A stretch of DNA of 64,000 nt. Source: Desulfobacca acetoxidans DSM 11109 (GTDB taxonomy: Bacteria > Desulfobacterota > Desulfobaccia > Desulfobaccales > Desulfobaccaceae). Below the pieces are notes generated by a model. That model did no database searches. It was not told where the DNA came from and saw only the letters and a list, made by a program, of their open reading frames with translations. Below, in pieces: positions 39,524-41,671 of this stretch. Made by a program: the position numbers and the translations under genes. The stretch covers positions 1 to 64,000 of the forward strand of contig NC_015388.1 of NCBI RefSeq assembly GCF_000195295.1, read 5' to 3'. How positions within the stretch are numbered: the first letter of the stretch is position 1; each line of letters begins with the position of its first letter.

Positions 39524-40456
39524 TTAAGCTGTCGGCCGTGGGTACAAACCGGCGCCCTTAACCAGTTCGGGCACTTTTTCTTCCCATTCAATGGCCATTA
39601 TGTGGAAACCCTTGACGCCGTTCAACCCTTTCAGTTCCTGCATCATTTCGATGGCCAGCCTGATCCCTTCTTCCGCCTGCTTTTCCTTGGGAACGCCTTT
39701 CAGCCGCTCAATAAGGTTATCGGGTACATCCATCCCCGGCACCCTGGATTTCATATAACGCGCCATCCCCAGACTCTTAAAAGGAGTAATGCCAGCCAAA
39801 ATGTGCACTTTTTGGGTCAGACCTTTGTCAACTGCGATCTTTAGCCATTCTTTGAACTTGGGAATATTATAAATGCACTGGGTCTGAATGAACTCCGCCC
39901 CGGCCTTAATCTTTTTGGCGAGCCGCATGGCCCGGACAAGTACATTGGGCCCGGCAAAGGGGTTTTCGGCAGCGCCCACAAACATATTGGGACGCGAGGG
40001 CAGGTCAAAACCGCTCATCAGCTTGCCCTCATCCCGCATCAGCCTGACGGTCTCCAGCAATTGAACAGAGTCCAGATCAAAGACGTTGGCCGAAGCCGCG
40101 TGGTCGCCGAAAATCTGATGGTCGCCCGTGAGACAGAGGATATTGTTGATACCGAAAGAAGCCGCACCCAGGATGTCGCTCTGTATGGCGATGCGGTTGC
40201 GGTCCCGGGTAGTCATCTGCATCACCGGTTCCAACCCCATCTGTTTCAGCCTGATACAGGCGGCCAGGCTGCATAACCTCACTACTGAGGTCTGGTTATC
40301 GGTTACATTGATCGCATCCACATAATCTTTAATCAGATTCGCCTTATGTTCGATCTCGGCCCCATCGGTGCTTCGGGGAGGACCTATTTCCGAAGTGACC
40401 GCCTGCTGCCCGGAAGCCAGGATTTTTTCTAAAGTGCTTGGTGTCTTGACGCTCAT
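39524..40456 (-). CDS. metF: 5,10-methylenetetrahydrofolate reductase
   Basis: This 310-residue flavoprotein interconverts methylene-THF and methyl-THF. The TIM-barrel family segments are visible: VTSEIGPPRSTDGAEI, DAINVTDNQTSVVR, MQMTTRDRNR and FIQTQCIYNIPKF. I chose ATG 40456, seven bases after AAGGA, although other starts lie up to nine codons upstream. It is the last gene of mvhD-metV-metF. In Wood-Ljungdahl organisms MetF works with MetV rather than directly with NADH, and the adjacent metV supports that here. Confidence 0.9.
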   Translation of the reverse strand: MSVKTPSTLEKILASGQQAVTSEIGPPRSTDGAEIEHKANLIKDYVDAINVTDNQTSVVRLCSLAACIRLKQMGLEPVMQMTTRDRNRIAIQSDILGAASFGINNILCLTGDHQIFGDHAASANVFDLDSVQLLETVRLMRDEGKLMSGFDLPSRPNMFVGAAENPFAGPNVLVRAMRLAKKIKAGAEFIQTQCIYNIPKFKEWLKIAVDKGLTQKVHILAGITPFKSLGMARYMKSRVPGMDVPDNLIERLKGVPKEKQAEEGIRLAIEMMQELKGLNGVKGFHIMAIEWEEKVPELVKGAGLYPRPTA

Positions 40457-40550: not shown

Positions 40551-41222
40551 TTAGTCTTTTCGGAGATCATCACGAATAATCACCCTCGGGCCGCCGTCCC
40601 GGCTGGTCCGCCAATCCTTGGCAGAAACCGGTTCTTCCAGCCGGTTTAATTGGCCCAGAATCTCCAGCCTTTCATAGATGAGATGCCAGGCGCAGGGTAT
40701 ATCCTTGTTGACCTCACATTTCCCGTTATCGGAGCCGCCGCACGGTCCGTTGAGCATCCGTTTGGAACAGCGGGCAATGGGACAGATGCCGCCTGTACTC
40801 GCCAGGATGCATTGGCCACAGCCGGCACAGCGTTCTTCATACCGCCCCCGCTCAGCATTGATGCCCATAAAGTGGGTGTTAACCCCTGGAAAAACAATCT
40901 TGTGATAATACATCTCAGTCAAATACTGGATGCCGCAGCCGCAGGCGAGAGAAATGACGGCGTCGGCATTTTCGACTAGGTCTTTTATTCCGGCCAGATA
41001 CTCTTTATCGCACTGTCTGGTCACCGTAGTCTCAATCACTTCATGATCCTTGCCCGCCTGAGTATAGTAAAGTCGCAGAGCCGAGCCGAGAATCTTGGCC
41101 TCTTTCATCCCTCCCGCTTCGCAGACGGTAACACAGCCGTCACAGCCTACAATCAGAATATTAGAAAAGTCTTTGACATAATCGATGATCTCCTCCAGCG
41201 GTTTCGGTGTTGCCTTGATCAT
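40551..41222 (-). CDS. metV: Methylenetetrahydrofolate reductase zinc/FeS subunit MetV
   Basis: This 223-residue protein has a Cys-rich N-terminal half (GCDGCVTVCEAGG, VISLACGCGIQY) and a second set near the middle (CAGCGQCI, CPIARCSKRMLNGPCGG). The last phrase, with NGPCGG and KCEV, is the hallmark of MetV, the electron-transfer partner of MetF in acetogens and many sulfate reducers. It lies between mvhD and metF in the same orientation. Confidence 0.88.
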   Translation of the reverse strand: MIKATPKPLEEIIDYVKDFSNILIVGCDGCVTVCEAGGMKEAKILGSALRLYYTQAGKDHEVIETTVTRQCDKEYLAGIKDLVENADAVISLACGCGIQYLTEMYYHKIVFPGVNTHFMGINAERGRYEERCAGCGQCILASTGGICPIARCSKRMLNGPCGGSDNGKCEVNKDIPCAWHLIYERLEILGQLNRLEEPVSAKDWRTSRDGGPRVIIRDDLRKD

Positions 41223-41242: not shown

Positions 41243-41671
41243 TTATGCGGCTTTCTTTTCATGAGCCAGACGGATCGGACTGGGACCCAACTTCTTGATC
41301 CGTTCGTCAAATTCACGGCAGATTTCGGCCCATCTGGTCCCCTGGCCGGCAGATAGATTATACATTTCCACGCGGTCCCGGCCGATACCGATCTTCTCAA
41401 GAATCTCCTTGGCCCGGCCGACTCGCTTACGGGCAAAGATATTGCCGTGCACATAGTGGCACTCGCCCTCTAAACAGCCGGCTACAAAGACGCCGTCGGC
41501 TCCCTGCTCAAAAGCCACCAGCAGGTGAATCAGGTCCACCCGCCCGGTGCAGGGGACTTTGACAATATGAATATGCGTTGGATATTGCAGTCTCATCGAA
41601 CCTGCCAGGTCCGCAGCAGAATACGCTCAATAACTACAGCAGAAAGCGATGATCTTGGGTTCGAATTCCAT
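41243..41671 (-). CDS. mvhD: Selenocysteine-containing MvhD (hydrogenase/Hdr FeS subunit)
   Basis: Reading from ATG 41671 (site GGGAG, six bases upstream) gives MEFEPKIIAFCCSY, then in-frame TGA, then AYSAADLAGSMRLQYP and the rest of a standard MvhD (142 residues). MvhD has FCCNWCSY at this point, so TGA replaces a conserved Cys of the 2Fe-2S site and should encode selenocysteine (codon 15). A SECIS-like hairpin follows at 41597-41613. MvhD passes electrons to HdrA; here its neighbours are metV and metF, as in the MetFV-Hdr-Mvh complexes of acetogens, but no hdrABC is present. A gene finder would otherwise start at ATG 41596 and lose the cluster ligands. Confidence 0.88.
41597..41613 (-). promoter_or_regulatory. 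SECIS-like hairpin for mvhD UGA
   Basis: On the mRNA, CGGACCU and AGGUUCG form seven pairs (one G-U) around a three-base loop GGC. The stem starts 14 bases after the UGA and the loop is about 21-23 bases after it. A small loop beginning with G at this distance fits bacterial SECIS elements, which recruit SelB. Confidence 0.7.

Follow-up and report, generated by a model that had tools for sequence, protein, structure and literature searches.

Here we describe a selenoprotein that is very probably encoded by the mvhD gene of the mvhD-metV-metF operon of Desulfobacca acetoxidans DSM 11109, together with a scheme for its decoding and for the electron transfer in which it would take part. The operon lies in the first 64,000 nucleotides of contig NC_015388.1 (hereafter the window), in which mvhD had already been taken for a selenoprotein gene in a sequence-only reading that the present analysis supports. 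In the proposed scheme, SelB would bring Sec-tRNA-Sec and dock on a hairpin just past an in-frame UGA; the UGA, codon 15, would be decoded as selenocysteine (Sec), and translation would run on to the TAA at 41243. The Sec would take the place of one of five conserved Cys (C12, C15, C41, C66, C71), which are candidates for a [2Fe-2S] cluster, and would tune or protect that cluster in MvhD. The protein would move single electrons between a flavoprotein of the HdrA type and the methylene-H4F reductase MetV-MetF, and in this acetate-oxidising sulfate reducer the net electron flow would be outward from methyl-H4F oxidation.

The mvhD gene (41243..41671, minus strand; FlpD/VhuD family, PF02662) was delimited by translation and a profile match. 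From 41671 it reads ATG...TTC TGC TGT AGT TAT TGA GCG TAT TCT... and ends with the TAA at 41245-41243; the frame FCCSY-UGA-AYSAADLAG given in the sequence-only reading proved exact to the base in both sequence and translation. With the UGA (41627..41629, minus strand) taken as sense and read as Sec at residue 15, the product has 142 residues, Sec included, and the FlpD/MvhD domain continues uninterrupted across the UGA (PF02662, 169.6 bits vs a gathering score of 22.3; residues 7-129, covering profile positions 1-123 of 123). A structure predicted for the protein (pLDDT 92.8) matches 7bkb_F and 5odc_D, which are MvhD chains of solved methanogen Hdr complexes, with a TM of about 0.9. Five Cys columns of the alignment are invariant (12, 15, 41, 66 and 71), and the UGA falls exactly on one of them, as had been claimed. 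The motif at this Cys, FCC-x-x-C, becomes CxxU in the Sec forms; CxxU is an already catalogued selenoprotein motif, and PF02662 is listed with it in a 2026 review (PMC13188914). The UGA is almost certainly read as Sec in an electron-carrying subunit. In methanogen Hdr complexes, electrons reach the HdrA flavin through a [2Fe-2S] cluster of MvhD (PMC6019823; PMC12350162); together with the conservation of the Cys columns and the non-standard residues of PDB chain 9sfi_K discussed below, this makes it most likely that Sec15 is a ligand of the cluster or lies next to it.

The genome consists of one contig of 3,282,536 bases. A search of this contig for Sec genes, which had been proposed as a check, recovered selA (1070399-1071769, 603 bits), selB (2519064-2520956, 384 bits), selD (557612-558529, 367 bits) and a tRNA-Sec with the anticodon TCA (UCA) (685239-685329, 80.5 bits), all above their curated cut-offs. 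The accompanying claim that the cell makes selenocysteine agrees with this gene content. The selD gene has one in-frame UGA of its own (AAG-U-AAK), followed by a strong hairpin. UGA is also found at the canonical UH motif of two formate dehydrogenases, two neighbours of which have Cys instead. Since UGA thus occurs in two mvhD genes, selD and two formate dehydrogenase genes, at least five putative selenoprotein genes are visible in the genome. The four formate dehydrogenase genes lie within 26 kb, with Sec at 1218570 and 1243885 and Cys at 1232531 and 1238554, and are possible selenium-replacement isozymes.

Ten FlpD domains are encoded in the genome, two of which have the UGA, in both cases at the same column: the window copy and a second mvhD at 975 kb, which also has the hairpin as in the window copy. 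Cys occupies this column in five other loci (L002, L003, L004, L006 and L008). The orthologues in three same-genus genomes are 87-89% identical and all keep the UGA, and dN/dS past the UGA, calculated for the window mvhD against these three, is ~0.05-0.06. The homologue alignment that had been suggested at this column was extended to 80 database relatives, of which 42 have UGA and 38 have Cys at this codon, with no other codon found; because one of the two search patterns required a Cys codon, the Sec share is, if anything, undercounted. The MvhD tree implies about nine changes between Sec and Cys, at least three of them forced by well-supported branches, but these counts are rough because one row (L066) is a Cys paralogue of the same locus, seven rows are missing and forks are weakly supported. 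A plasmid search returned a single, distant match.

The seven-pair hairpin with a GGC loop that had been described 14-30 bases past the UGA was found at 41613-41597 (CGGACCU-GGC-AGGUUCG; 41597..41613, minus strand). Bacterial SECIS (bSECIS) elements have a small apical loop containing G (PMC1088965), and the GGC loop and the position directly past the UGA inside the open reading frame agree with the description in that study. The exact pattern TGA-N(10-16)-GGACCTGGCAGGTTC had two matches genome-wide, both in mvhD, and its reversed-pattern control had none; the looser pattern TGA-N(12-20)-CCTGGNAGG had 54 matches genome-wide (32 + 22), both mvhD copies included. RNA folding, a further check that had been proposed, gave a divided answer: the seven-pair hairpin was present, but its energy alone was unremarkable, being no lower than that of shuffled sequences (z = -0.79; 46 of 200 shuffles at least as stable). 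For such short hairpins, a folding energy below that of shuffled sequence is a supporting rather than the usual defining criterion. The UGA genes overall were likewise no more stable than synonymous shuffles in the folding-energy comparison, and the 975 kb mvhD copy has rival folds of equal energy.

The constraint on the hairpin was assessed by comparing UGA and Cys genes. UGA genes form 6.7 of the 7 hairpin pairs (synonymous expectation 4.2), whereas Cys genes form 3.4 (expectation 3.4), a difference with a Mann-Whitney p of 4e-15 when sequences are treated as independent; in the hairpin alignment, 96.4% of the cells are paired in UGA genes vs 48.2% in Cys genes. Four hairpin codons are almost invariant in the 48 aligned UGA genes (GAC 48/48, CTG 48/48, GCA 47/48, GGT 48/48) and far less so in the 40 Cys genes (GAC 28/40, CTG 21/40, GCA 2/40, GGT 9/40). 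Codons a few places either side of the hairpin are variable in both sets, which places the constraint locally at the hairpin. Among UGA genes the outer pair, C-G in 21, has switched to G-C in 14; the switch accompanies an Ala-to-Gly change, is found mostly within one clade and may have happened just once. Because this freezing sets the UGA genes apart from the Cys genes, we regard the codon comparison as decisive for an RNA-level constraint on the hairpin that applies only where UGA is used. In this set of 48 Sec and 40 Cys genes, synonymous codons cleanly reveal a bSECIS constraint on which folding energy is uninformative. A wider generalization, that MetVF-linked MvhD across anaerobic bacteria swaps Sec and Cys repeatedly and that all sampled Sec forms have a near letter-identical 15-nt RNA element (GGACCUGGCAGGUUC), is offered tentatively and seems to us doubtful in its full extent.

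Readings in which no Sec is inserted have to be weighed against these data. TGA is one base apart from TGC and TGT, and a misread Cys codon in a single assembly would remove the case for Sec; such a sequencing error has practically no chance of being the explanation, as TGA stands at the same codon in the 975 kb paralogue, in the orthologues of three congeners and in 42 further loci, the freezing of the hairpin codons is confined to TGA genes, and the published assembly of D. acetoxidans ASRB2T/DSM 11109 has an error rate under 1 in 100,000 at 350x coverage (PMC3156406). The presence of TGA at this codon in independent genomes refutes it. It is very improbable that the gene is a pseudogene, or that the UGA is a real stop followed by re-initiation at the next in-frame ATG, which lies at 41596, as had been noted, 33 nt past the start of the UGA, and at which ordinary gene finders would begin. 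Translation from 41596 would yield 117 residues, an MvhD lacking its first strand together with C12 and C15, the first two of the invariant Cys; the residues ahead of the UGA (EFEPKIIAFCCSY) match those of relatives, and the ATG codon itself encodes a conserved Met that most Cys genes have as well. Purifying selection past the UGA speaks against a pseudogene, and the same-genus UGA orthologues with their low dN/dS rule it out, so that neither error nor pseudogene accounts for the gene. The frame would also be open under any code with UGA as sense, and a general suppressor might insert Trp or another residue without SelB-directed Sec. We give this hardly any credence and reject it because the UGA sits exactly on the Cys column of a redox family and is followed by a position-fixed hairpin, because the genome has a dedicated tRNA-Sec(UCA), SelA, SelB and SelD, and because its formate dehydrogenase genes also have UGA at the canonical UH motif.

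The selenoprotein gene adjoins the genes of a methylene-H4F reductase. On the minus strand, mvhD is followed by the adjacent metV (40551..41222; PF12225, methylene-H4F reductase C-terminal partner) and metF (39524..40456; PF02219, methylene-tetrahydrofolate reductase), both assigned by profile match and 80-84% identical to their same-genus counterparts. The usual gene order among relatives is hdrA-mvhD-metV-metF, for UGA and Cys mvhD alike: within the limits set by contig ends, hdrA was found upstream of mvhD at 39 of 42 UGA loci and 34 of 38 Cys loci, and metV downstream at 39 of 42 and 29 of 38, respectively. Beside the window mvhD there is no hdrA or other hdr gene, the upstream gene being mdh, and three same-genus genomes (L119, L120 and L121) have hdrA directly before the mvhD orthologue. 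By this comparison of gene order, hdrA has been lost from the operon in the window, and the electron partner of its MvhD is therefore uncertain. The place of the sibling hdrA, between mdh and mvhD, is occupied by a cobalamin riboswitch (42281-42099, minus strand, 126 bits), followed by two intrinsic terminators (42041-42014 and 41968-41935); the riboswitch may control mvhD-metVF or be a remnant of a rearrangement, and an Rfam search found no riboswitch upstream of mvhD in siblings or relatives. The closest HdrA left in the genome is 68% identical to the sibling cognate HdrA and is part of the 975 kb Sec-mvhD cluster. A third cluster (378452-383547; L035, ~381 kb) has the order hdrA-mvhD-metV-metF with a Cys MvhD and represents a selenium-free version of the module, and a fourth, more distant cluster of this kind (952996-962973; L037) combines a Cys MvhD with further HdrA-like genes.

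The earlier claim that Sec lies in the electron path to MetFV therefore stands in part: the mvhD-metV-metF order agrees with it, but the usual upstream hdrA is missing, and the claim is drawn from gene order, not biochemistry. A rather unlikely alternative is that the Sec-containing MvhD of the window is made but forms no local Hdr-MetVF complex, because, with hdrA lost, it is declining or has another HdrA module (e.g. the 975 kb one) as its partner. The riboswitch, terminators and mdh that stand where the siblings have hdrA are in its favour, as is the location of the best remaining HdrA in the other Sec-mvhD cluster, whereas the continued adjacency of metV and metF, with their high identity to the sibling genes, and the strong purifying selection on the window mvhD argue against it; moreover, mvhD-metVF likewise occurs without a detected hdrA alongside in other lineages (L073, L081 and L102). 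We prefer the reading in which the selenoprotein would exchange electrons with MetV-MetF.

Selenoproteins of this family have been recorded before. Bacterial FrhD (COG1908/PF02662) selenoproteins were tallied at 19 genes in 2006, with eight in Syntrophobacter fumaroxidans, four in Syntrophus aciditrophicus and others in Moorella and Carboxydothermus (PMC1794560); four Sec mvhD genes (mvhD1, 2, 3 and 5) were reported for Desulfobacterium autotrophicum in 2009 (PMC2702500), and a Sec mvhD with SECIS for Desulfococcus multivorans in 2016 (PMC5109826). As far as the relevant passages of these accounts describe them, these genes resemble the window mvhD in family, in Sec replacing a conserved Cys, in their deltaproteobacterial hosts and in their hdr context, and the bacterial in-frame SECIS is shared with D. 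multivorans, for which it is stated. In those passages, a metV-metF neighbourhood like that of the window mvhD goes undiscussed. Our literature search found no paper linking D. acetoxidans with selenoproteins. The mvhD-metV-metF order and the protein families are those of the Moorella-type HdrABC-MvhD-MetVF methylene-H4F reductase (PMC5736913), but the MetVF-linked MvhD of Moorella mulderi (L057) has Cys, and the window lacks the adjacent hdr genes.

In an archaeal-type relative, the VhuD of PDB chain 9sfi_K (F420-non-reducing hydrogenase delta), the aligned CxxU column of residue 15 is occupied by a non-standard residue X, which presumably stands for Sec; the chain has a second non-standard residue at the C66 column, where the window protein has Cys. 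Archaeal SECIS elements are located in the 3' UTR. VhuD has been described as an electron carrier to HdrABC (PMC6019823). Four same-genus FlpD paralogues (L136, L142, L143 and L146) have UGA at the C66 column, not at C15 (VGGU-EAGTC, VMGU-HLGDC, VAGU-HLGDC). It therefore seems that Sec can stand in bacterial MvhD at one or the other of the two positions where archaeal VhuD has a non-standard residue.

Sec in MvhD/FrhD/VhuD is thus already known, for the bacterial family since 2006, and the D. acetoxidans gene, though a sound new case, comes as no surprise. Its recognition mends the annotation of a gene that would be cut short by standard gene callers, and documents a predicted Sec residue in an electron-transfer subunit tied to the methylene-H4F reductase of an acetate-oxidising sulfate reducer. 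Because Cys versions are encoded in the same genome (the mvhD-metVF module at 381 kb and two formate dehydrogenases), a Methanococcus-like pattern of selenium-replacement isozymes would be directly testable in this organism.
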